Assembly (NCBI GenBank): GCA_903844635.1
Contig: CAIMUF010000035.1
Coordinates: 1-43,508 of the forward strand
From: an uncultured Sulfuricurvum sp.
GTDB lineage: Bacteria > Campylobacterota > Campylobacteria > Campylobacterales > Sulfurimonadaceae
Length of the DNA stretch: 43,508 nucleotides
Direction: 5' to 3'
Part shown: piece by piece, positions 2-16,653 of the stretch
Position numbering within the stretch: the stretch's first letter is position 1
Layout: each line of letters opens with the position of its first letter
Made by a program: the position numbers and the translations under genes
The notes under the pieces: generated by a model
Database searches by the model: none
Seen by the model: the letters and a program-made list of their open reading frames with translations, nothing else
What the model was told of the DNA's origin: nothing

Positions 2-3000
2 GGAACCTACACCTATACGTTGGACAACACCAACCCGGCGGTCAATGCACTGAACACCAACAGCACACCGCTTACGGATACCTATACCTACACCCTCACT
101 GACGGGGATGGTTCTACCACCACTGCGGTTCTTACCATTACGATCACAGGAACGAACGACGCACCAGTAGCCGTAGCGGACGTTAATACGGTGAGTGAGG
201 ATGCAGTGAACGTAGCTGGGGATGTTACTCCTGGTACAACTGGTCAAGATAGTGATGTGGATGGAGATACACTAAATATAATCGGTGTTGCTTCTGGTAC
301 TCAGACATCAACAAGCGGAAATGTTGCGACAGCGGTTGCAGGAACATATGGTTCAGTGAACATAGCGGCAAACGGAAGTTATACCTATACACCTAGTGCT
401 GCTGCACAGGCACTAAAATTGGGTCAGAATGGAACTGATATCTTTAGCTATACAATTAGTGACGGAAATGGTGGGACAGCAACAACAACCTTAACAATTA
501 CCGTTCAAGGGGCTAATGATGCACCGACTATAACAGGACCATTGACAGGTACGGTTACTGAAGATGGAACAACGACAGCAACAGGAAGCTTGACAATCGT
601 TGATCCGGATGCGGGCGAGTCAAACTTTGTTGCACAGACAGGTATTGCAGGAACATACGGAACCTTTAGTGTAACAGCTGCAGGTGTATGGACATATACA
701 CTTACGAATAGCGCAGCAAACGTACAGGCACTGGCTCAAGGACAGACTCCGACAGAAATATTTAGCATTACAAGCGCTGATGGAAGTATTCGTTCAGTAG
801 TTGTGACCGTCAACGGAAGCAATGATGCTCCAATTGCAGTTGCGGATACCAATGCAATTACAGAGGAGACAACAACGGCTCCAACTACTGTAAGCGGAGA
901 TGTTACTCCGGGTACGGCAGGACAAGATCGTGATATTGATAATGGAGCGACATTCACTGTTACGGGTGTTGCTGCTGGAACACAGACATCAGCGTCGGGC
1001 AATGTTGGAACAACAGTTGCCGGAACCTATGGTTCAGTGAATCTTGCAGCAGATGGAAGTTATACCTATACTCTTGATAATACAAAAACGGCAACGAACA
1101 GTCTCAAAGCAGGACAAACGGCTTCAGAGGTCTTTACCTATACGATTACGGATAATAATGGTGCAGTCAGTACTACAACACTTAGCATTACGATCACAGG
1201 AACGAACGACGCACCAGTAGCCGTAAATGATAGCTATAATATGAACGAAGACGGAGCGGCGATCACCCTTGCACCATTGACTGCAGATACAGATCTTGAT
1301 GGTGATACATTAAGTGTACAAAGTATCAACGGAACAACATTAACTCCGGGTACAGCTCAAGTTATCATCGTGCCACACGGAACAGTCAATGTAAGTGTTG
1401 CAGGAGTGATTACGTTTACCCCTACAGCGAACTACAATGGAGATGCTACATTTGCCTACATCATCAGTGATGGACATGGCGGAACTGCGACAGCAAACGA
1501 GACGATCACTATTGCGGCAGTAAATGATGCACCATCAGGTACAGACAAAACTATTACTATGTTCGAAGATGGTCGTTATACTGTAGTAGTGGCTGATTTT
1601 GGATTCACAGATCCAAATGATTCACCTGCAAATAACTTCCAAAGTGTTATTGTTAATGTTCCAACTTCAGGTGCTTTATTTTACAACGGTGTTGCAATTA
1701 CAAGTGCCACGACAATAACTCTTGCTGATCTAAACGCTGGTAAGTTAATTTACTCTCCAGCGGCGAATGTGAATGGTACTGGTGTTGCTAACTTCACATT
1801 CCAAGTTGCTGATGACGGTGGTACAACAAATGGTGGACAAAATACTGATCAATCTGCTAATACACTTACATTCAATGTGACTCCAACTGTTGATGTTTCA
1901 GCTAAATGGATCGATTATTGGACTTTCAATGAAGGAACAGGAACATCTACAACCAATACAAATACATTTATAGATCGTATAGGTACAATAACGAATAATA
2001 CACCACACACTGGTCAAGTTGCTGACCCTTCAGCTGATTTGCGACCAACATGGACATTGCCAACGGATGGTCGTAATGGATCAACTGCTATGCAGTTTAA
2101 AGGAGTTGGAGGAGCATCTTCAGCCCGTGATGGAGGATGGATAGCTCTTGATTCATCCGTTACAAATCCTTTGGCTGGACTAACAGCGAGTAAGGCAGCT
2201 ACCCTTTCTTTTTGGATTAATACCACTCAAGTAGGTAGCACTATAGGGTGGGATTCACCTTCAGTTATTGGTATGGAAAACAATGGAGCAGTTGCCGATA
2301 TTCAATGGGGTTGGATTGACGCAAACGGAAAAATTGGTTTTGGAATGGGAGATAATACCGGACTTATGAGTACCAACGTTGTCAGTGATGGAACATGGCA
2401 TCAAGTGACCATTTCTCATGATTTTACTAGTGGGAAAACCTATTTATGGGTGGATGGTGTTAATAATGTCAATGGTACAGTTCTCTTGGCAAACACAGTG
2501 GTAGCAACGAATAAATTTTTAGGTCTTGGTGTAACTGCGGATGATGGTGCAACGTCAAATCGCTTTTTGAATGCTAAACTTGAAGATGTCCGAATTTATG
2601 ATAGTGTTCTTACAACTACTCAGGTTCAAGCGATTTATGAAACAGAATTGATGGGATATCAAAACTCAGTGATTGCAAATGACGGACATGCATTACATTT
2701 TTCTTTAAGTGTTAATAATACTACGAGTCTTATTATCTCTGGTCTGCCAAATGGAACAATAGTGACAGATGGTGGAACGCATTCATTTACAGTTGGTGCA
2801 GCTGGAACAGCAGATATTACAGGATGGAATGCGTCAGAACTTGAAGTGAATACTTATGGAACTGGATCATTTATGATGATGGTAACAGGAAGTGATGCCG
2901 CTGGTACAAGCGTTAACCAATATTTATCTGTTGTAACAGCAGCGGATATGTTTACGGGAACAACATCTAATGATTCCCTTACTGGAAATACTAATGATAA

Positions 3001-3547
3001 TGTTCTCACTGGAGGTGATGGTAACGATACGCTGTCTGGTGGAGCTGGGAATGATGCTCTTTTTGGAGGGGCTGGAAATGACACATTAGACGGTGGATCC
3101 GGAGCAAATGTTTTGTATGGTGAAGCAGGAAATGATACTCTTGCTTATAATGGTGCGGATAAATTTATTGACGGTGGTGCAGGAACGGATACTTTGCTCT
3201 TAGCGACAGGGTCTAATATTGATTTTAGTATACTTAACAGTACAAATGATCCGATCAAAAATATAGAAATTATTGATCTTAATACAACAAGTGCACATAC
3301 CCTTGTTAAAATATCATTTTCTGATGTGATTGATATGACCGATAGTAATCATCAATTAACCATTCTTGGAAATAGTGGAGATAGTGTAAGTTTACAAAAT
3401 ACTACTGGAGCTACATGGACAAAAGATACTACAGCCGTTACAGAGGTTATTAATGGTTCTTCTCATGTGTTGGATGTTTATCACAACAGTGCCGATTCTA
3501 CGGTATTGGTCAAAGTAGAACAGAGTATTAGTGACCAAGTTCTTTAA
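2..3547 (+). CDS. Giant VCBS/LamG/RTX-repeat surface adhesin, 3' part
   Basis: The reading frame is open to the left edge, so the true start lies upstream; about 1,180 residues are visible. In order there are VCBS-type modules separated by GTNDAP/GANDAP/GSNDAP linkers (near bases 150, 515, 820, 1200 and 1515), a tandem cadherin/Ig-like region (to about 1900), a LamG/concanavalin-like domain (about 1905-2650) and RTX calcium-binding nonapeptides of GGxGNDxL type (about 2950-3180). The end is an Asp/Ser/Val-rich tail typical of type I secretion substrates. Such proteins are exported in one step to the outside and mediate attachment or biofilm. The next two genes encode LapG- and LapD-like proteins, which suggests a LapA-type adhesin held at the outer membrane by its N-terminus. 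That N-terminus, with any LapG cleavage site, is outside the window, so the link is inferred from gene order. Confidence 0.9.
136..175 (+). repeat. 40-base exact direct repeat, copy 1 (VCBS linker)
   Basis: This 40-base stretch coding around GTNDAPVAV is identical to bases 1186-1225. The offset is 1,050 bases, exactly 350 codons, so both copies are read in the same frame. Base-level identity across a synonymous linker suggests recent duplication or gene conversion within the adhesin. Confidence 0.85.
1186..1225 (+). repeat. 40-base exact direct repeat, copy 2 (VCBS linker)
   Basis: Identical to bases 136-175. It lies at the junction between the VCBS modules and the following cadherin-like module and keeps the frame. 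Confidence 0.85.
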
Positions 3548-3567
3548 AAATTCGCTAAAATAAGGGC

Positions 3568-4212
3568 ATGAAAAAATCGTTCGCTCTTTTCTTCATCGTG
3601 GTGGCAATCGCCACCACTCTCATAAGCTCACCTGAATTTACCATTGCCAAGATATTTTTAGACAAAATTGACAAAGAATACGGTGTTTTTGCCAAGCGTC
3701 GAGCAATCGCTTTAGTACAGATGATGAGTAGTGTGAGAGATCAAGATGAGATGAAAAAAATGGAAGAAGTAAATGATTTTTTCAATCAAACACCTTATGC
3801 ATCGGATAAAGAAATATATGGGGTGAGCGATTACTGGGCAACTCGATTGGAATTTATCGGTCATGATAAAGCAGATTGCGAGGACTATGTCATCGCCAAA
3901 TATTTTACACTTAAAGAGTTAGGGATTTCTCCCAAAAAACTCTATATGACGTACGCTAAATCGTTGAAGTACAAAACCGCTCATTTGGTTTTGACGTATT
4001 ATGAAACTCCAAAATCCATCCCTTTGGTTTTGGACAACTACAATTACAAAATTCTCCCTGCATCTCAACGCGACGATCTGGTTCCGATTTACAGTTTTAG
4101 CGGAGATGAGCTTTTTTCTGCCAAACAAGCACAAATAGGTAAACTCGTCCCCGCATCCAGTGCCCAAAAACGTCCATGGGACGAACTTGTCATTACTCAA
4201 CAAAAGGAATAA
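3568..4212 (+). CDS. lapG: LapG-type periplasmic transglutaminase-like cysteine protease
   Basis: The 214-residue protein has an N-terminal signal sequence (hydrophobic residues about 5-20) and the bacterial transglutaminase-like cysteine proteinase fold. The likely catalytic triad is visible: Cys104 in KADCEDY, His139 in KTAHLVL and Asp156 in LVLDNYN. The His-Asp spacing of 17 matches what I recall for Pseudomonas LapG. In that system LapG is a calcium-dependent periplasmic protease that cuts the N-terminal anchor of the giant adhesin LapA and so releases the cell from a surface. The gene starts 20 bases after the adhesin stop, with a TAAGGG ribosome site, and is followed 3 bases later by lapD. 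Family call is firm; the substrate is inferred from the neighbouring adhesin. Confidence 0.88.
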   Translation: MKKSFALFFIVVAIATTLISSPEFTIAKIFLDKIDKEYGVFAKRRAIALVQMMSSVRDQDEMKKMEEVNDFFNQTPYASDKEIYGVSDYWATRLEFIGHDKADCEDYVIAKYFTLKELGISPKKLYMTYAKSLKYKTAHLVLTYYETPKSIPLVLDNYNYKILPASQRDDLVPIYSFSGDELFSAKQAQIGKLVPASSAQKRPWDELVITQQKE

Positions 4213-4215
4213 ATC

Positions 4216-6177
4216 ATGAGCTTATTTAAACAACTTTCCATTATGCTGACGCTTTTTTTAGGAATCATTCTCGCTTCGGTTATGATTTTAAATTTTAAAA
4301 CAGCAACGGAGTTTGTCCAAAATCAACTCTATACGGATGCTAAAAATACGTCGCATTCTCTGGGATTATCGCTTTCAAAAGTAGCCGATCCAGACGATAC
4401 TTCGACAATGGATACGATGATTAATGCGATTTTTGACAGCGGATATTATGAGCTTATCAGCCTCAAAGATGTGGATGGAAAAATACTTTATGAGCGTAAA
4501 ACAGATGTTGTAGTGAGTGATGTCCCCTCATGGTTTATTGGGGCTGTTCCTGTTCAAAGCAGCACAGCTTCCAGTGATATTATGATGGGATGGAGTCGTT
4601 TTGGAACCTTGGAAGTACGTGGTCATGCAGGTAATGCATACCGTCAACTTTATTCCACTTTGATTGAATTAGTAAAAACTTTTCTTATACTAGGTGTTAT
4701 TGTTTTTGCTTTTTTGTATCTGCTGTTGTCGTTGAGTTTGAAATCACTTAAACGAATTGGCGATCAAGCGAAAGGGATTATCAAAAATCAATTTATCTTT
4801 GAAGACAAAATACCTTTTACAACGGAGTTCCGTTCAGTGACGGTAGCGATGAATGCCATGGTGGGAAAAGTAAAAGATATTTTTGAGCGTGAAGATGAGA
4901 CATTGAAGCGTTATCATGAACTTTTATATAAAGATGCTGAAACAAAGCTGTACAATCGCCGTTATTTGGTTGCAAAACTTCCTGATTATCTTCAGACAGA
5001 TACGCTATTTTCAGCAGGGGTCTATGCACTGTTTAGTTTTGATGAGCTTGATCGACTGAAAAAAGAACTGGGATATGAATCTTACCGCTCACTTCTATCT
5101 ACTTTTTCATATAGCCTTAATGATGAATTTTCCAGTGATCCGTATACCCTGATTGCACGCTTGAACGAAAGTGATTTTTTTGTAGTAATACCATCAAAAG
5201 AATCATCTGAAATCATAACGAGATTTGAAAAGGTCATGACTCTGTTGCATCAGGAGATTATACGAGAAAATGAGTCAGTTGAAGAATACTTAGTAGTAGG
5301 ATGCAGCGTTGGCAACTATACTGAAAATGACACGCTTAAGTCTCTTTTTTCACGGGCTGATTATTCGGTTACGCAAGCAAAACTTCGACAAAATTTTTCG
5401 ATTGATGTCAACGTTGAGGGTAAAGATTCTCTTGTACTTGGTCGTGAAGAGTGGAGAAATGAACTGCTGCTGAGTTTGGAAGAATCACGAATGTTATTAG
5501 CATTTCAAAGTGTTGTGAATGTACATGACGGTAAAACGGATGTACTGCATGAAGAGATATTTTTACGTCTTTTGGATAAAGAAGGGACGATACATTCAGC
5601 CGGTTACTTTATTCCCATTGCTACAAGTCTGGGTTTGATTGATATGTTAGATCGTTACATGATTACGCAAGTGTTGAAGTACCTAAAAGAGCAAAATCAG
5701 ACGACGTCAATGGCAGTCAATCTAAGTGGAGATTTTGTCAAAAAATATGCCAATATTGAGTGGTTAAAGATACAGCTTGCGCTTTTTTCACGTACTAATC
5801 GAACGCAATTGTGGTTTGAAGTGAGTAACTCTATCGCATTGTCGGAGCTTGAAGCGGTACAGTCCTTGTGTAAAACAGTCAAGCATCTTGGTCATCGTTT
5901 TGGGATAGATCATTTTGTGCTACCTGAGAGTGGGGCGCTTTATTTGCAAGCAATAGATCCTGATTATGTTAAATCAAATGCAGGGTATTTACAAGACATG
6001 ATGCTGGATAGTGAAACTGGAAATACACGTGAAAGTTTGAATAATTTAGTAAAAAGTTTGGGAATTTCGATTGTGGCGATAATGATTGAAAATTCAGAAC
6101 AGATGGAAGCTCTTAAAAATCTTGGAATAACAAGATTTCAAGGCTCGTTTATTGCACCTGTGGCGATGCTCAAGTAA
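4216..6177 (+). CDS. lapD: LapD-type c-di-GMP receptor (degenerate GGDEF-EAL, inner membrane)
   Basis: The 653-residue protein has TM1 at about residues 8-26, a periplasmic domain to about 150, TM2 at about 152-175, a HAMP-like linker, then GGDEF and EAL domains. The GGDEF signature is replaced by RLNESDF (315-321) and the EAL motif by EEIFLRL (446-452), so neither synthesis nor hydrolysis of c-di-GMP is expected. That is how known LapD works: the EAL-like domain binds c-di-GMP and the periplasmic domain then sequesters LapG, protecting the adhesin. Trp126 in a GWSRFG context is placed like the LapG-contacting tryptophan I recall from Pseudomonas LapD. It lies directly behind lapG and is probably co-transcribed. 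The role is inferred from architecture plus context. Confidence 0.87.
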   Translation: MSLFKQLSIMLTLFLGIILASVMILNFKTATEFVQNQLYTDAKNTSHSLGLSLSKVADPDDTSTMDTMINAIFDSGYYELISLKDVDGKILYERKTDVVVSDVPSWFIGAVPVQSSTASSDIMMGWSRFGTLEVRGHAGNAYRQLYSTLIELVKTFLILGVIVFAFLYLLLSLSLKSLKRIGDQAKGIIKNQFIFEDKIPFTTEFRSVTVAMNAMVGKVKDIFEREDETLKRYHELLYKDAETKLYNRRYLVAKLPDYLQTDTLFSAGVYALFSFDELDRLKKELGYESYRSLLSTFSYSLNDEFSSDPYTLIARLNESDFFVVIPSKESSEIITRFEKVMTLLHQEIIRENESVEEYLVVGCSVGNYTENDTLKSLFSRADYSVTQAKLRQNFSIDVNVEGKDSLVLGREEWRNELLLSLEESRMLLAFQSVVNVHDGKTDVLHEEIFLRLLDKEGTIHSAGYFIPIATSLGLIDMLDRYMITQVLKYLKEQNQTTSMAVNLSGDFVKKYANIEWLKIQLALFSRTNRTQLWFEVSNSIALSELEAVQSLCKTVKHLGHRFGIDHFVLPESGALYLQAIDPDYVKSNAGYLQDMMLDSETGNTRESLNNLVKSLGISIVAIMIENSEQMEALKNLGITRFQGSFIAPVAMLK

Positions 6178-6405: not shown

Positions 6406-8148
6406 ATGAAAACAACAACTTCCCAACCTTTTCGATTTCTTCCCACAACTCGCGCCGAAATGGATGAACGCGGATGGGATCAATGCGATGTTATCCTTGT
6501 TAATGGCGATGCCTATATCGATTCCCCTTTTATAGGAATAGCTGCTGTAGGACGAATTTTAGAGCGTGAGGGGTATCGTGTCGGTATCATTGGACAGCCT
6601 GATATTACCAGTGATGTGGATATTAAACGCCTTGGCGAACCGAGACTTTTTTGGGGAGTGAGCGGCGGAAGCGTTGACTCGATGGTTTCCAACTACACAG
6701 CAACTAAAAAGTTTCGCAATAATGATGATTATACCCCAGGCGGAGTGAACAATAAACGTCCCGATCGTGCGGTACTTGTCTATACTAATCTTATCCGTCA
6801 ATATTACAAAAGTACGGTTCCTATCGTTCTTGGAGGGATAGAAGCCAGTTTACGCCGTGTTACTCATTATGATTACTGGACAAATAAGCTTCGTAAGCCA
6901 ATTTTATTTGATGCCAAAGCGGATTTCCTTATCTACGGAATGGGGGAGGGGGCGATAATTGCTCTTCCGAAAGCGCTTGACGAAGGAAAATCACCATACG
7001 ATATACGTGGCGTTTGTTATATTGCTAAAGAACCTAAAGAAGGTTATTTGACATTACCATCGCACAAGGAGTGCTTGGAAGAGAAAGAAAAATACATTGA
7101 CCTTTTTGATGCATTTTATGATAATAATGATCCTATTTCAGCATTAGGATTGTGTCAAGAGGTTGATGGCAGGTTCAGTATTCAAAATCCACCTGCCGAT
7201 TATCTCGATGAGAATGAAATGGACGCCGTTTCAGCACTCCCTTTTACCCGCGAGCTTCATCCTTATCACCGACCTCAAGGCGAAGTAAAATGCCTTGAAA
7301 CAATCAAATTTTCGATTATGACCCATCAGGGATGCTGGGGTGAGTGTAACTTTTGTGCGATCGGGGTTCATCAGGGCCGAACCATTCGTACACGCAGTGA
7401 AGAATCGATACTTGCTGAAGCAACGCAGTTTACGGAGTATAAAGATTTCAAAGGGATAATCAGCGATGTCGGAGGTCCTACGGCGAATATGTACGGATAC
7501 GAGTGTAATAAAAAGCTCAAACACGGTACATGCGCACACCAAAGATGTGTAGATGATACGCATTTGTGCAAATCAATGAAAGTAGATCATACACGCATTA
7601 TTAACCTCTTACGACGTCTTCGTGAAGTTAGAGGTGTTAAAAAAGCATTTGTCGCTTCAGGGGTACGCTATGACCTAATTACTGAAGACAAACGCCAAGG
7701 ATACGACTATTTAAAAGAAATGGTGCGTCACCATATCTCAGGGCAGATGAAAGTTGCCCCGGAACACACTTCGGATCATGTACTTCATTTGATGAACAAA
7801 CCTGGAAAGCAGACGCTTGTCGATTTCAAAAAATTGTACGATCAGTTGAATAAAGAAGAAGGAAAAAAACAGTTTTTGACGTACTATCTGATTGCTGCAC
7901 ACCCCGGATGTACCGAAAAAGACATGCATGATTTGAAGCGTTTTACGTCGGATGAGTTAAAGATGAACCCTGAGCAAGCGCAAGTTTTTACCCCAACTCC
8001 TGGAACCTATTCTGCGGTAATGTATTACACCGAAATGGACCCAAAAACGAGAGAAAAAATCTTCGTCGAAAAAGATACCGCACGTAAAGAGAAACAAAAG
8101 CAGATTGTTGTCGCGAAAGACAACTTTAAAAGCGGATTTTCGAGTTAA
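6406..8148 (+). CDS. ygiQ: YgiQ/UPF0313 family radical SAM protein
   Basis: The 580-residue protein matches the YgiQ family: an N-terminal cobalamin-binding-like region with conserved DVILVNGDAYIDSP, then a radical SAM core whose cluster-binding cysteines are C310, C314 and C317 in GCWGECNFC. The family also has the cysteine-rich segment CAHQRC and a conserved C-terminal block (TPTPGTYSAVMYYTEMDP). The chemical reaction is not known for this family; a [4Fe-4S]/SAM enzyme in the cytoplasm is expected. The stop overlaps the stop of the minus-strand GGDEF-EAL gene by 4 bases (TTAA). The gene stands alone and may be translated from a leaderless mRNA. Confidence 0.92.
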   Translation: MKTTTSQPFRFLPTTRAEMDERGWDQCDVILVNGDAYIDSPFIGIAAVGRILEREGYRVGIIGQPDITSDVDIKRLGEPRLFWGVSGGSVDSMVSNYTATKKFRNNDDYTPGGVNNKRPDRAVLVYTNLIRQYYKSTVPIVLGGIEASLRRVTHYDYWTNKLRKPILFDAKADFLIYGMGEGAIIALPKALDEGKSPYDIRGVCYIAKEPKEGYLTLPSHKECLEEKEKYIDLFDAFYDNNDPISALGLCQEVDGRFSIQNPPADYLDENEMDAVSALPFTRELHPYHRPQGEVKCLETIKFSIMTHQGCWGECNFCAIGVHQGRTIRTRSEESILAEATQFTEYKDFKGIISDVGGPTANMYGYECNKKLKHGTCAHQRCVDDTHLCKSMKVDHTRIINLLRRLREVRGVKKAFVASGVRYDLITEDKRQGYDYLKEMVRHHISGQMKVAPEHTSDHVLHLMNKPGKQTLVDFKKLYDQLNKEEGKKQFLTYYLIAAHPGCTEKDMHDLKRFTSDELKMNPEQAQVFTPTPGTYSAVMYYTEMDPKTREKIFVEKDTARKEKQKQIVVAKDNFKSGFSS

Positions 8149-10088
8149 AGAGACATAGGCTTACCCGTATAATAGCCTTGTGAGTAAGTAATCCCAAGTT
8201 CAGAGATAATGGTAAATATCTCTTTGGTTGCGACGAATTCAGCAATGGTTTGGATACCGATACGGTCTGCAAAATTAACGATGGATTCAACGACAATTCG
8301 GTGGCGTGGATTTTGATCAATATTGCGAATGAGAGAGCCGTCAATTTTCAAGAAATCAACATTGAGCTTGAGAATATTTTCAAAGTTAGAATATCCGCTT
8401 CCAAAATCATCGATAGCAATGCTAGCACCCAGTTCTTTCATGCGAGTAATGAAAGAGGCAACTTCATCGAAATTTTCTATTCCTTCAGATTCTAATATCT
8501 CAAAAACGACACGATTTGCAGTACCTGTTTGTTTCAAAATTCGTTCAATGGTGGTGACAGTGTAGGGATCAAGTATATCGCTGCTTGAGAGATTTATAGA
8601 AAAATGTTCACTCCGAGTACTAAATGTACGACATGCTTGATAAATTACTTGGTGCGTGATACTTGAATAAAGTTTTGTTTTTTGAGCAATGAGTAAAAAA
8701 TCGTTAGGTGGTATGAGTGTACCATCATGCTGTTGGATTCGTACGAGTGTCTCATATTTTTCGGCAATCCCCGTTTTACAGTTGATGATTGGTTGGTATT
8801 GGCAGACAATACGCTGTTCGATGAGTGCTTGGCGTATTTGTGCAGACATGGCTATATTGATTTTATATTGCTCTTCAATTCCCTCACTGGCATCATATAT
8901 CGAATACGTTTTTTTGAGAGAGCGTGCTTTATTGAGAGCAATATTGGCATGAATAAGTGGTTTGTTACTCATAATAGCAACCCCAATAGTTGCTCTAAGG
9001 TGAAAAGATTCCGCTCCAATACTAAACGTTTTTCCAATAAAGCTAGAAAGTAACATCCCAATATTTTTTTGTATATCTTCTTTTGAAAGCTCACGTGGAA
9101 GAATAATGGCAAACTCATCTCCACCAATACGGTAAGGGTTTAATTGCATTTCACTTAACCAATCTGCTACTAGAGTTAATAAATTATCACCTGCGTCGAT
9201 TCCGAAAAAGTCGTTCACTTCTTTAAAATCGTCTATATTAAAAATTGCAACGGTAGTATTGGAAAATTGGATTAAATCTTCTTGTAATTTTAATCGATTT
9301 GGAAGCCCTGTCAAAGTGTCATGATAAAGATTATCGATAAGTTCACGTGTTTTTTTATCTACTTTTTCTTCCAAGAGTTCATTAATTTGACGCAGTTCAT
9401 CTGTAGCCCATGCAATTTTATTTTCAAGAATTACATGACTTCTACGTAATGTGTGACGATAAACGAGCAAAAAAGGAAATAGTCCTATAAGAATTGCGAT
9501 GGATGAAGCAATAGAAGTAAAGATAGAAGCATTGGAAAGTTTTTGTATTGATTCTACATCGATGTCAGCTCCAATAATATAGCGATAACCAGATGGAGTC
9601 GTATGAGGAACATAAATACTCCGAAATTTCCCCCATCGATCAGGATTTGCAGCCATATCTATAACTGTTGTATTATTTTTTAAAGCTTTGAGCATAAGGT
9701 CGTTTTTTGGGTATGTGTCATAAAAATGGGTCAAATTTTTTTCGCTTATAAGCTCGCTATGACGAGCGCTGCTGGAACTAAAGTGTAAATTTCCTTGTGG
9801 ATCAAGAACCATTGAATAGATATACATGACACCTTGTGAATTTGCTAAAGTGGTTAATGTTTGAATCATATTTGCATCTTCAACCGAAGAGGGAGGAGTT
9901 ACGGCAATTGCAGTGTGATAATTGTCGCCAATAATGATTTGTGCTGATTCTACTGCACGCTCCAGAGAGGTATTGATATTTTTATCCGTTAATTTTTTTT
10001 CGCTATCGTGATAGCGATACCCTATAGCAAAAAGAACAGTTATAAAAAACAGAAAAGCAAGAAAAAATCTTTTCCCATCAACGTGCAT
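8145..10088 (-). CDS. Membrane GGDEF-EAL protein with intact catalytic motifs
   Basis: The 647-residue protein has TM1 at about residues 8-24, a periplasmic sensor region (about 25-187), TM2 at about 190-210, a helical linker, then GGDEF and EAL domains. GGDEF is intact at 322-326 (YRIGGDEF), with the metal-binding NIDDF upstream. In the EAL domain the motif reads ETL at 446-448, but the other catalytic positions are present: Asn499, Glu530, Asp560-Asp561 in IDDFGSGYS, Lys581 and Glu617. It could make and/or degrade c-di-GMP in response to a periplasmic signal. A weak AAGG ribosome site precedes the ATG. A paralogue of the same length and layout lies at 14625-16553 on the same strand. The dominant activity cannot be told from sequence. 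Confidence 0.88.
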   Translation of the reverse strand: MHVDGKRFFLAFLFFITVLFAIGYRYHDSEKKLTDKNINTSLERAVESAQIIIGDNYHTAIAVTPPSSVEDANMIQTLTTLANSQGVMYIYSMVLDPQGNLHFSSSSARHSELISEKNLTHFYDTYPKNDLMLKALKNNTTVIDMAANPDRWGKFRSIYVPHTTPSGYRYIIGADIDVESIQKLSNASIFTSIASSIAILIGLFPFLLVYRHTLRRSHVILENKIAWATDELRQINELLEEKVDKKTRELIDNLYHDTLTGLPNRLKLQEDLIQFSNTTVAIFNIDDFKEVNDFFGIDAGDNLLTLVADWLSEMQLNPYRIGGDEFAIILPRELSKEDIQKNIGMLLSSFIGKTFSIGAESFHLRATIGVAIMSNKPLIHANIALNKARSLKKTYSIYDASEGIEEQYKINIAMSAQIRQALIEQRIVCQYQPIINCKTGIAEKYETLVRIQQHDGTLIPPNDFLLIAQKTKLYSSITHQVIYQACRTFSTRSEHFSINLSSSDILDPYTVTTIERILKQTGTANRVVFEILESEGIENFDEVASFITRMKELGASIAIDDFGSGYSNFENILKLNVDFLKIDGSLIRNIDQNPRHRIVVESIVNFADRIGIQTIAEFVATKEIFTIISELGITYSQGYYTGKPMSL

Positions 10089-13888: not shown

Positions 13889-14628
13889 AAAAGTTAAAAG
13901 CACGTTTAGACGCAGAGGTTGCGCGACGGAATTGTTCAGAGGAGATATGTGAGAATAAACCTGATCCCTTGATGATTGCACGTTCATTTGGAGATGAATG
14001 CAATGCCCTTACATGCGCATTATTTGCGTATGGTAATGTACGTGCAATTGTTGGTTTTTTACGATCGTTAGAGAACGGACTTATTAATATGGACGAAGAG
14101 AATATCATGAAGTCTGTTGAGGGAAAATATTATCGTTTTCAAAATAGTGAAGATATAGCGCAATGGTTTATCACGCTTCGACGTTTAAAACTTAATGGAG
14201 GAGTAGAAGAAGCATTTAGGCAGGGATATGACCAAGGCGGGGTATTGGAGGGGTTAGATGCCCTTATTGAAACATTGTATGATCTGAATCCGTATAGGTC
14301 TCAAGGCTATGCTTTCCTCATCGGAAAACCAATTAAAAAAAGTTCTTCCCCCTCAGCGATGAAACGGATTATGATGTATTTGCGCTGGATGGTACGACAT
14401 GATACGCTTGATATGGGGCTGTGGAGCGTTATGCCGTCTTCTGAACTCATTATGCCGCTGGATACCCATACGTTTCATGTTTCTACTAAATTAGGGCTAT
14501 TAAAGAGAAAACAATGCGATCTTAAAGCGGCTTTAGAATTAACGGAAAATTTAAAAAAATTTGATCCGTTGGACCCGATAAAATATGATTTTGCACTTTA
14601 TAGGCTAGGGCAGGAAGGAATTATTTAG
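13885..14628 (+). CDS. TIGR02757 (DUF2400) family protein
   Basis: The 247-residue protein matches the TIGR02757 family: an N-terminal helical part with ARSFGDECNALTCALFAYGNV, a middle SSSPSAMKRIMMYLRWMVRHD, and the conserved LIMPLDTHTFHVSTKLGLLKRK. The last part resembles the helix-hairpin-helix DNA glycosylase fold (LDTHTFHVS recalls the Asp of endonuclease III-like enzymes), but function is not established. It overlaps rpoN by 4 bases and is last in the operon, with its stop overlapping the convergent GGDEF-EAL gene by 4 bases. Confidence 0.85.
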   Translation: MKKLKARLDAEVARRNCSEEICENKPDPLMIARSFGDECNALTCALFAYGNVRAIVGFLRSLENGLINMDEENIMKSVEGKYYRFQNSEDIAQWFITLRRLKLNGGVEEAFRQGYDQGGVLEGLDALIETLYDLNPYRSQGYAFLIGKPIKKSSSPSAMKRIMMYLRWMVRHDTLDMGLWSVMPSSELIMPLDTHTFHVSTKLGLLKRKQCDLKAALELTENLKKFDPLDPIKYDFALYRLGQEGII

Positions 14629-16553
14629 GGAAGGTGGCTTGGCGTTCCAATGTAAAATCCTTGCACATAGTCGACATTTAACGTTTGTAATGTTGTGAAA
14701 ATCGCATCATTTTCAACATTTTCAGCAATTGATTTTGCTCCAATTGCATTAGCAAATCCTGCTATGGTTCGCACCATTTCTAAATATTTTCGATTATCAT
14801 TGATTTTATTAATCAATCTACCATCAATTTTGAGATAATCAATATCCAAGTGAATGATTTTTTCTAAATTGGAATAGCCTGCACCAAAATTATCAACCGA
14901 TATTTTTGCGCCCAATTTTTTTACCTCTGCAATGAAGAGGGATACACGAATATAATGATCATAAATATCCTCTTCCGAAAGTTCAAAGACAATTCTGCGA
15001 GCGGTATTCGTACTAACTATTGTCTCTTCAAGGTAGCGGAGTGTATGTTGATCCATCATATCATGTGCGCATAGATGAACAGAAAAATTTTCATCACGTT
15101 CTGCAAAAGACTCACAGGATTGACGCATGATTTCTCGTGAAATTTCAGGATAAAGTGCTGTTTTTTTGGCAATGGTTAAAAAATTCAAAGGTGGGATGAG
15201 GGTTGAATCTTTACTAATTAATCGTGCGAGAGTTTCATAACCCTTGATTTTCCCAGTTTGAGTTGAAACAATGGGTTGATAATAGCATATTATACGTCCA
15301 TCATAGTATGCTTCGCGAATAGAGGACGCGATAATAAGGTTTTGATTCTGATGATGTTCGAGTTCTTTATCTTCTTCATAGATTGAAAAGTCTTGTGATT
15401 TTTCTGTTGCATTGGCAAGCGCTTCATCCGCATGAGAAAGAGAAAGATGCAGGCTTGAATCAATTCCGAGTCGAGTCGATACAAGGATTCTTTCATTTAA
15501 GACATTAAATGAGTGTTCGTTGAGTGTATGGAGTAAAAATTCAGCAAAAATTGTCAAATCTTCTGTCGTTTTATTCAAATCTAGGAGAACTGCAAATTCA
15601 TCTCGTCCTAATCGATACGCAATGAGTCCATGCTTAGTCAGAAGCAGTGAAACTTGCTGTCGTAAAGAATCCGTGATGGCCGCCCCAAAAAAGTGATTTA
15701 GTTCTTGAAAATTTTTAAGATGAATAATGACAAGAGCATGATAATTGTGACGATCCATATCAAATAAAAGACGATGTCTGTTGGGAAGATGAGTGAGTGA
15801 GTCAATAAATCCTTCATTAATCAGTTCTTTTGTCTTCTCTTCTACATGTTCATGTAAAATTTCGGTCGTATTATGAAGTTTTTCACTGGTTGATTCAATC
15901 TCTTCACTTAAACGCTCTGAATTATCAGTTAGCACATTCCTGTACACAATTAAGAAAGGAAGAATCCCCGCAAAAAGAAGAAGTGATTTTGCAATGGTAT
16001 CAAAAATTGCTATTTGAGATAGCTTTTGAAGGGACGTAGGCTCTGTAACTGCAATCGTTAGATAGTGGATTCCTGCTGAAGTAGTACAAGGAAGATAGAG
16101 AGTGTGAAAGCCTTGAATGGTATCGAGCTTAAAGTAGGGTTGATTGTTTTTTAGAATTTTAGTAAGTTGTTCACGATCCTCCTTCACTGCATCAAGAGGC
16201 TGAATGAGCGCTTGATTCGATGAAGCGAATGCATTGCTAATACCATAACGCAAGGTGTTATTGCTGTCTATAAATACACTGTATAAGCGTCCCATACTAT
16301 TAGTACGTGCCAATGATGTCATATCCTTGATCATATTTGCTGTTTCTATCGGTGTAACTTGACCTTCCCATAAATGATCATAATAATTACTCCCGGTGAT
16401 TATTGAGGCAGATGATGCAGCTTCTTCTAAATTAGCTTTAATTGTCTCTATATGGGTGTTCTCTGCATCATAATATTCTCGAATACCCATTCCGATTACA
16501 ACAGCTAAAAAGAGCAAAAGAGCTATAAAAAATTTTTTACTATTAACGCGCAT
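14625..16553 (-). CDS. Membrane GGDEF-EAL paralogue with degenerate active sites
   Basis: I take the start at base 16553 (MRVNSKKFF), because GGAG lies 6 bases ahead of it and it aligns with the start of the 8145-10088 paralogue; an in-frame ATG 12 bases upstream has no such site. The 642-residue protein has TM1 (about 8-24), a periplasmic region, TM2 (about 185-205), then GGDEF and EAL domains. GGDEF reads GRDEF (316-320) and the upstream metal-binding aspartates are lost (HLKNF). In the EAL domain the Asn of the INLS motif is His493, and the DDFG pair is Asp554-Asn555. Synthesis is therefore unlikely and hydrolysis doubtful; a c-di-GMP receptor or regulator role is possible. It is divergent from the COG3400 gene. 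Confidence 0.87.
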   Translation of the reverse strand: MRVNSKKFFIALLLFLAVVIGMGIREYYDAENTHIETIKANLEEAASSASIITGSNYYDHLWEGQVTPIETANMIKDMTSLARTNSMGRLYSVFIDSNNTLRYGISNAFASSNQALIQPLDAVKEDREQLTKILKNNQPYFKLDTIQGFHTLYLPCTTSAGIHYLTIAVTEPTSLQKLSQIAIFDTIAKSLLLFAGILPFLIVYRNVLTDNSERLSEEIESTSEKLHNTTEILHEHVEEKTKELINEGFIDSLTHLPNRHRLLFDMDRHNYHALVIIHLKNFQELNHFFGAAITDSLRQQVSLLLTKHGLIAYRLGRDEFAVLLDLNKTTEDLTIFAEFLLHTLNEHSFNVLNERILVSTRLGIDSSLHLSLSHADEALANATEKSQDFSIYEEDKELEHHQNQNLIIASSIREAYYDGRIICYYQPIVSTQTGKIKGYETLARLISKDSTLIPPLNFLTIAKKTALYPEISREIMRQSCESFAERDENFSVHLCAHDMMDQHTLRYLEETIVSTNTARRIVFELSEEDIYDHYIRVSLFIAEVKKLGAKISVDNFGAGYSNLEKIIHLDIDYLKIDGRLINKINDNRKYLEMVRTIAGFANAIGAKSIAENVENDAIFTTLQTLNVDYVQGFYIGTPSHLP

Positions 16554-16653
16554 ACAATTCTCCATTTTTTATTAATAAATGTCAGTATAACATTTTTATT
16601 AACAAAATAGATGAGCCAGTAATGACGCAACAGTGGTGAAAATGAAATTATGG

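Follow-up and report, generated by a model that had tools for sequence, protein, structure and literature searches.

A probable Lap-type adhesin-release switch with a candidate transcriptional layer in Sulfuricurvum

An uncultured, sulfur-oxidising Sulfuricurvum sp. of the phylum Campylobacterota very probably possesses a Lap-type surface-release switch, i.e., a giant adhesin, a LapG-type protease and a LapD-type receptor for cyclic dimeric guanosine monophosphate (c-di-GMP), divided between two contigs of its assembly. The window, i.e., the whole stretch of DNA analysed here, is contig C35 at its full length of 43,508 nt, in a genome (G000) of 2.67 Mb and 86 contigs. It begins within the adhesin gene, at a contig end, and for this reason carries neither the adhesin N-terminus nor the export genes, which are assigned to contig C72. 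A LuxR/NarL-type regulator gene and a palindrome lie between exporter and adhesin, and we lean slightly towards a functional link between these two. Taken as a whole, a Lap switch with an added transcriptional layer is the probable best explanation of the data. The parts of the locus, the catalytic triad, the cleavage motif, the docking tryptophan, the gene order of relatives, the co-occurrence of genes and the palindrome spacing are all read directly from the sequences. The assignment to Campylobacterota, made in a first-pass annotation from the letters alone, is borne out by the named relatives of LapD: the closest is 98% identical to the window protein, and every one of the five named records found is a Sulfuricurvum metagenome-assembled genome.

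Switch genes and export machinery

The window part of the adhesin gives profile matches to VCBS (224 bits), cadherin-like/Big_9 and RTX repeats, and is followed after 20 bp by lapG and, after a further 3 bp, by lapD (Table 1). This agrees with the first-pass description of a giant VCBS/RTX adhesin with a LapG-type protease within 25 bases of it. The protease matches Peptidase_C93 (PF06035) with 57.8 bits (cut-off 27) and the solved LapG structures 4fgo and 4u65 with an E value of 1.9e-35 each, and profile searches place it in no other family. Its triad of C104, H139 and D156, likewise proposed at first pass, aligns with both structures and is unchanged across the six close orthologs aligned.

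The gene set had been described as complete except for the export machinery. The switch genes stand, whereas the missing machinery is a contig-end effect. Contig C72 carries, in order, an OmpA-family gene on the opposite strand, TolC, an LssB-type ATP-binding cassette (ABC) transporter, HlyD, a 197-aa regulator with a LuxR helix-turn-helix (HTH), and the start of an adhesin, at which the contig ends. The ABC transporter, about 2 kb upstream of the adhesin start on C72, matches the LssB-type family with 875 bits (cut-off 693), and its counterpart in genome G009 is 83% identical. Four relatives, G009, G012, G023 and G029, have the complete series TolC-ABC-HlyD-regulator-adhesin-LapG-LapD on one contig each, with an uninterrupted adhesin frame (that of G009 contains a run of N), and G011 and G035 show the same order from TolC to LapD with the frame broken by runs of N. 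An RTX adhesin with an LssB-type ABC, HlyD and TolC set is thus present, its export genes lying on C72 and tied to the window by synteny. When the adhesin N-terminus of G009 is used as the query, the single match in the own genome is at the end of C72, in a frame that opens with MARIIGYVK, carries NNDNETAAGNEV and is still open at the contig end.

Two further type I secretion systems (T1SS) were seen in the own genome. Contig C40 (L055:1784-16641) holds a second T1SS/regulator locus, with a retention adhesin of 3399 aa and no adjoining lapG or lapD. Contig C54 (L086) holds a third, with a large open reading frame (ORF) of RTX repeats, an ABC transporter 33% identical to that of G009, HlyD and a MotA/ExbB-family protein (24.0 bits, cut-off 22.9); this arrangement is reminiscent of SiiA/SiiB-linked exporters.

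LapG sites and distribution

The site in the C72 adhesin, within NNDNETAAGNEV, reads ETAAG and fits the form [TAP]AAG behind a retention module. The check that the first-pass annotation had proposed for the adhesin N-terminus, a retention module and a LapG site, therefore turned out in its favour, the module being retention-like and divergent. The same motif is known from elsewhere, as LPETAAG in Shewanella denitrificans and EETAAG in Thiomicrospira crunogena, according to the accessible part of Navarro 2011 (PMC3032553). The genus gave 45 adhesin matches, from which four short ORFs of 147-164 aa (G008 C20, G000 C81, G002 C16 and G030 C7:49818) and a fragment cut at 45 aa (G001 C106:6-119) were excluded. 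TAAG is present in 26 of the remaining 40 (17/31 in one set and 9/9 in the other), five have an altered site (ETATG, ETASG, ETTAG, ETSSG and, in the own C40 adhesin, ETTSG), and nine have no site in the 194-240 aa read.

A TAAG adhesin occurs in 20 of the 22 genus genomes with LapG. G005 and G008 carry TAAG adhesins without LapG; since the adhesin frame ends less than 170 bases from the contig end in both, LapG may be absent from the assembly only. Loss of the site in LapG-less genomes was considered as a test of LapG dependence and dropped. G016 and G017, which have neither LapG nor LapD, do have adhesins without a LapG site; however, site-less adhesins that start with MSKAIGEV also occur in the LapG-positive G023, G026 and G038, and the contrast is thus one between adhesin classes.

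The MSKAIGEV class without a LapG site is represented by L183:5711-8764 (G016), L185, L201 and L202; its members in L183 and L185 have Ala/Glu/Gln-rich repeats, with a gene that encodes about 271 aa and lacks a Pfam match placed between regulator and adhesin. Another N-terminus, on G003 C12 (L191:4903), lacks TAAG and shows the motif FxDRTG...SGLR several times; single copies of a similar motif come after the cleavage site in other adhesins.

The two switch families travel together. Among 298 Campylobacterota genomes, Peptidase_C93 was found in 83 and LapD_MoxY_N in 84, with both in 82; only G316 has the protease family alone, and only G282 and G289 the receptor family alone. Within the genus, both occur in the identical 22 of 41 genomes, the own one included. 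The LapG-positive genomes of the phylum belong to families f1, f4, f9, f11 and f20. The Fisher values computed ignore the relatedness of the genomes and are descriptive only. Variants in gene content were also seen, namely tandem lapG genes in G030 (L065), a T1SS/adhesin locus of G029 (L064) that includes lapG and lacks lapD, and one lapD flanked by two lapG genes in family f11 (L088, L197).

Regulator and palindromic promoter element

The 197-aa regulator resembles NarL-, CsgD- and VraR-type LuxR-HTH regulators in its GerE HTH (54 bits) and in remote matches over its whole length to UhpA, NarL and CsgD models and to VraR and NarL structures. It differs from NarL and VraR in that profile searches returned GerE and related HTH profiles only, with no match to Response_reg, and in that the receiver-lysine position, located by the NarL/VraR alignment, is Ala, Ser or Thr in 16/16 copies; no Asp is found among the conserved columns of the N-terminal part in these 16 aligned copies. 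For the L082 copy, an AlphaFold2 model built from the single sequence was poor (mean predicted local distance difference test score 42) and was left unused.

Of the 41 genus genomes, 26 encode the regulator (E up to 1e-25), and these coincide exactly with the genomes that have a match to the A1 retention adhesin. In 13 of 15 loci with a visible adhesin start, the regulator gene immediately precedes the adhesin, the exceptions being L061, with the regulator on the far side of the adhesin, and L089; in 12 further loci it is directly before the adhesin in six, separated by one gene in three, and not beside it in three. G016 and G017 carry a diverged regulator (135 and 128 bits, respectively) and variant palindromes (TTGTCCGATCGGACAATTG and CTGACCGATCGGACAATAG, respectively), and since both genomes lack LapG and LapD, the regulator-palindrome layer goes with the adhesin rather than with the protease.

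The gap between regulator and adhesin, 83-132 bp in 13 aligned loci, contains a strongly conserved dyad. A riboswitch was considered for this gap and rejected: Rfam returned nothing in five loci, and what is conserved there is a DNA dyad followed by a −10-like hexamer. The own genome contains two copies of the pattern GTMCNNNRGKACAATWG, one before each adhesin, with 0.32 copies expected from base composition; the copy before the C40 adhesin has GTCC arms. In the 41 genus genomes it has 38 matches, 31 of them 55-70 bp before an adhesin start, and the reversed pattern has 7; the counts for GTMCNNNRGKACAATWG are lower bounds, since it misses variants (the second locus of G029, G034, G003 C12, G016, G017 and G038 C11). 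A hexamer TANAAT/TANNAT begins 20 nt after the palindrome in 43 of 48 sites and 21 nt after it in the other five; these sites came from retrieved loci chosen for an adhesin-like start downstream and are no test of the adhesin link, which is tested by the pattern searches over the genus and phylum genomes. If the hexamer is a −10 element, the dyad centre would lie near −43, as for an activator overlapping −35.

The tighter pattern TNGTACYWWRGTACAATWG is present in 18 of 298 phylum genomes, in four genera of families f1, f11 and f20, and its reversed form in none. All 18 genomes have both LapG and LapD (18/83 LapG-positive genomes, 0/215 others). The 21 rows found correspond to 19 distinct sites, two having matched on both strands, and 18 of the 19 have an adhesin-like frame 54-71 bp downstream, L176 being too close to a contig end to judge. 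In G229 and G013 the first start codons are at 40 and 49 bp, and the MATSG and MARVIG starts at 58 and 61. ETAAG is present in 14 of these 18 frames, with no site or another form in four.

Several observations weigh against the proposed layer. TNGTACYWWRGTACAATWG is absent from 65 of the 83 LapG-positive genomes, including all those sampled from f4 and f9, and seven of the 38 genus matches of GTMCNNNRGKACAATWG are not in front of a detected adhesin start. Of these seven, one in G012 C127 (L186:1839) precedes a REC-PAS-HD-GYP gene, with 20-nt spacing to TATAAT, and one in G025 C5 (L193:2765) lies 198 bp before an RTX-repeat protein of at least 855 aa without a recognised retention module; for the other five, no adhesin was seen at the usual distance. 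Palindromes without an adjoining regulator are found in L189 and L198, and five of 29 distinct regulator genes are not followed by a palindrome.

That the neighbouring protein binds the palindrome is something we infer, and these exceptions leave room for the palindrome to serve another regulator, perhaps a global one, as its operator, with the LuxR/NarL-type protein next to it acting on other targets. The family f11 adhesins with a palindrome and no regulator beside them (L198), the regulator genes that lack it, and the copy before the REC-PAS-HD-GYP gene all fit this alternative, which we nevertheless consider doubtful. Regulator and retention adhesin share the same set of genus genomes, the palindrome lies within 60 bp past the stop codon in 24 of the 29 regulator genes, and, unlike a global operator, it is very rare elsewhere in the genomes. 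In addition, GTCC arms pair with regulators whose helix reads ITPRTVK (3/3 with a box; a fourth such regulator is boxless), and GTAC/GGAC arms with other helices, a pairing also explicable by shared ancestry. If the regulator does act at the palindrome, its regulon may include a c-di-GMP enzyme, i.e., the REC-PAS-HD-GYP protein of G012.

LapD receptor and counter-evidence

The LapD-type receptor scores 134 bits on PF16448 (LapD_MoxY_N), 136 bits on EAL and 43 bits on GGDEF, and both degenerate motifs named at first pass, RLNESDF for GGDEF and EEIFLRL for EAL, are where they had been read. The reference EAL motifs were checked against an alignment to PA0861. The DD pair of the EAL domain reads DH in 19 of 20 LapDs with letters at this position, and 20/20 lack the Glu of AExVE; because the second Asp of the pair is His and this Glu is absent, EAL catalysis by the window LapD is unlikely. 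Binding of c-di-GMP is plausible. The docking of LapG was read from the alignment to 4u64/4u65.

The window docking loop keeps the Trp and reads GWSR, as against the GWxQ termed strictly conserved in the accessible part of PMC4359373, and this is a first point against a canonical switch. The deviation is shared: 19 of the 21 genus LapDs listed have R as the fourth residue, one has Q and one has H. It could mean that LapD has stopped sensing c-di-GMP, and that LapG is constitutive or responsive to another cue, in keeping with an EAL motif of EIFLR against the EXLXR given for LapD in the part of PMC10333796 at hand. We regard this as unlikely, as the Glu and Arg of the EAL motif and the Asn, Lys and Gln positions are retained, and LapG and LapD are gained and lost jointly across genomes.

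Further points count against a canonical Lap switch. The full-length LapD reaches 323 bits against an NCBIfam LapD equivalog cut-off of 1020, and LapG 173 bits against 320; because these cut-offs are not reached, the two proteins are, by profile score, distant members of their families. The retention-like module on C72 scores 18 bits on NF033682 (E 0.0026, cut-off 50). It aligns with the G035 C25 adhesin, which itself scores 77 bits. In G003, LapG and LapD are present without TAAG in the two adhesins read, and G015 has ETASG.

Finally, the ends of C72 and of the window share no exact sequence overlap, and C40 carries another retention adhesin, such that the window adhesin might start elsewhere than on C72, with its true N-terminus lost or at another place and its LapG site possibly absent; this is very improbable, since the C40 adhesin is complete, with a stop codon of its own, C72 terminates within an adhesin frame, A1 matches nothing else in the own genome but a 152-aa ORF on C81, and the genes flanking either side correspond to those of relatives in which the locus is unbroken. 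Gene order in relatives and the presence of only two long retention adhesins in the own genome, that on C40 being complete, thus point, by synteny and elimination, to C72 as the place where the window adhesin begins.

In family f9, LapD_MoxY_N matches are split into two halves in frames of 734-748 aa (e.g., in G211, G290, G322, G336, G353, G370, G371 and G113), which suggests that the periplasmic sensor domain there holds an insertion of about 100 aa.

Proposed mechanism and significance

In the Lap-type switch proposed here, the adhesin would be exported via the TolC/LssB-type ABC/HlyD type I system, and an N-terminal retention module remaining in the periplasm would anchor it at the outer membrane. 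When c-di-GMP is high, LapD, through its presumably dead EAL domain, would adopt the state in which its W126 loop captures LapG; when c-di-GMP is low, LapG would be free to cut the adhesin at ETAAG, past the retention module, and so release it. Binding of c-di-GMP, cleavage and release are steps that we infer. In the second layer, the regulator of LuxR/NarL type whose gene immediately precedes that of the adhesin would bind the palindrome centred near −43 and control transcription of adhesin, lapG and lapD apart from the export genes. Whether this extends to the phylum is, to our mind, evenly balanced: the Campylobacterota switch would then be two-layered, with a regulator of non-canonical receiver acting on a palindrome in at least three families to pick the adhesin that is made with its own LapG and LapD, while paralogs with an altered site (ETTSG, C40) would escape LapG.

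The analysis would place a complete c-di-GMP adhesin-release switch in a phylum for which the literature searched holds no description of one. The palindrome serves as a genomic marker, as all 18 judgeable sites of the 19 in the phylum lie just before an adhesin-like gene. A transcriptional input to a Lap-type system becomes testable with one regulator and two promoters, and the own genome offers a built-in contrast between an adhesin with a canonical site and one without, under the same promoter layout.

Other features

The coordinates are collected in Table 1. The weak laminin-G/pentaxin-like stretch of the adhesin is a possible ligand-binding part. Two more c-di-GMP proteins had been noticed near the switch, and profile searches identify both as GGDEF-EAL proteins; the more distant one may be degenerate, in contrast to the nearer one, whose motifs read GGDEF and IDDFG.

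Table 1. Positions of features in the window and, where a contig is named, elsewhere in the same genome
Feature	Position	Strand	Basis
C-terminal 1181 aa of giant VCBS/RTX adhesin (LapA-like)	2..3547	+	ORF open at 5′ end; VCBS, cadherin-like and RTX matches
Weak laminin-G/pentaxin-like stretch, aa 781-883	2342..2650	+	Laminin_G_2 21.7 bits, Pentaxin 19.8 bits, each below cut-off
RTX calcium-binding repeats, best stretch aa 1013-1047	3038..3142	+	PF00353, 59 bits
LapG-type periplasmic cysteine protease, 214 aa	3568..4212	+	PF06035; 4fgo/4u65 alignments; invariant columns
LapG triad codons C104, H139, D156	3877-3879, 3982-3984, 4033-4035	+	Structure alignments; invariant columns
LapD-type receptor, 653 aa: LapD_MoxY_N, degenerate GGDEF and EAL	4216..6177	+	PF16448, PF00990, PF00563; solved-structure matches
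Putative LapG-docking loop GWSRFG, aa 125-130, with W126	4588..4605	+	Alignment with GW loop of CdgS9 output domain (4u64); conservation
Degenerate GGDEF motif RLNESDF, aa 315-321	5158..5178	+	Motif alignment
Degenerate EAL motif EEIFLRL, aa 446-452	5551..5571	+	Motif alignment
GIDHFV, aa 563-568, second Asp of catalytic DD pair replaced by His	5902..5919	+	Alignment to PA0861
GGDEF-EAL protein	8145-10088	-	Profile match; motifs GGDEF and IDDFG
GGDEF-EAL protein	14625-16565	-	Profile match; motifs GRDEF and VDNFG
Palindrome before C40 adhesin	C40:20017-20033	-	Pattern GTMCNNNRGKACAATWG
Palindrome before C72 adhesin	C72:45639-45655	+	Pattern GTMCNNNRGKACAATWG

Comparison with known systems

Pseudomonas lap operons are not known to carry a regulator gene of this kind; the Sulfuricurvum locus differs from them by a LuxR/NarL-type gene that separates exporter from adhesin, and by a palindromic promoter element. 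The Lap mechanism itself is known from Pseudomonas and Legionella (PMC13090378 and PMC4359373, in their accessible parts). With LapA/LapD/LapG and LapBCE of Pseudomonas fluorescens and LapG/CdgS9 of Legionella, the present system shares the protein families, the triad, the docking Trp, the dead GGDEF-EAL pair, the LssB-type exporter and the [T]AAG site, and it differs in GWSR for GWxQ, in other dead-site residues and in a retention module under the NF033682 cut-off.

Lap-like logic outside Gammaproteobacteria is described for DvhA/DvhG/DvhD of Desulfovibrio, with a BTLCP protease, a di-alanine site and type I export (PMC13090378, as far as accessible). By the same partial text, the receptor DvhD is of dCache/PAS/HD-GYP type and DvhG contains a membrane segment, whereas the Sulfuricurvum receptor appears to be of true LapD type. 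The available part of PMC10333796 describes LapD as widespread within Pseudomonadota and mentions Sulfuricurvum kujiense by name for the density of its c-di-GMP turnover proteins. The open-access literature searched gave no description of a Lap system in Campylobacterota; an earlier mention may exist in the J. Bacteriol. 2018 survey of retention modules. On the sequence evidence, then, the Lap system of Sulfuricurvum is an addition to the Lap systems already known, and what sets it apart is the regulator together with the promoter element that its adhesins share.

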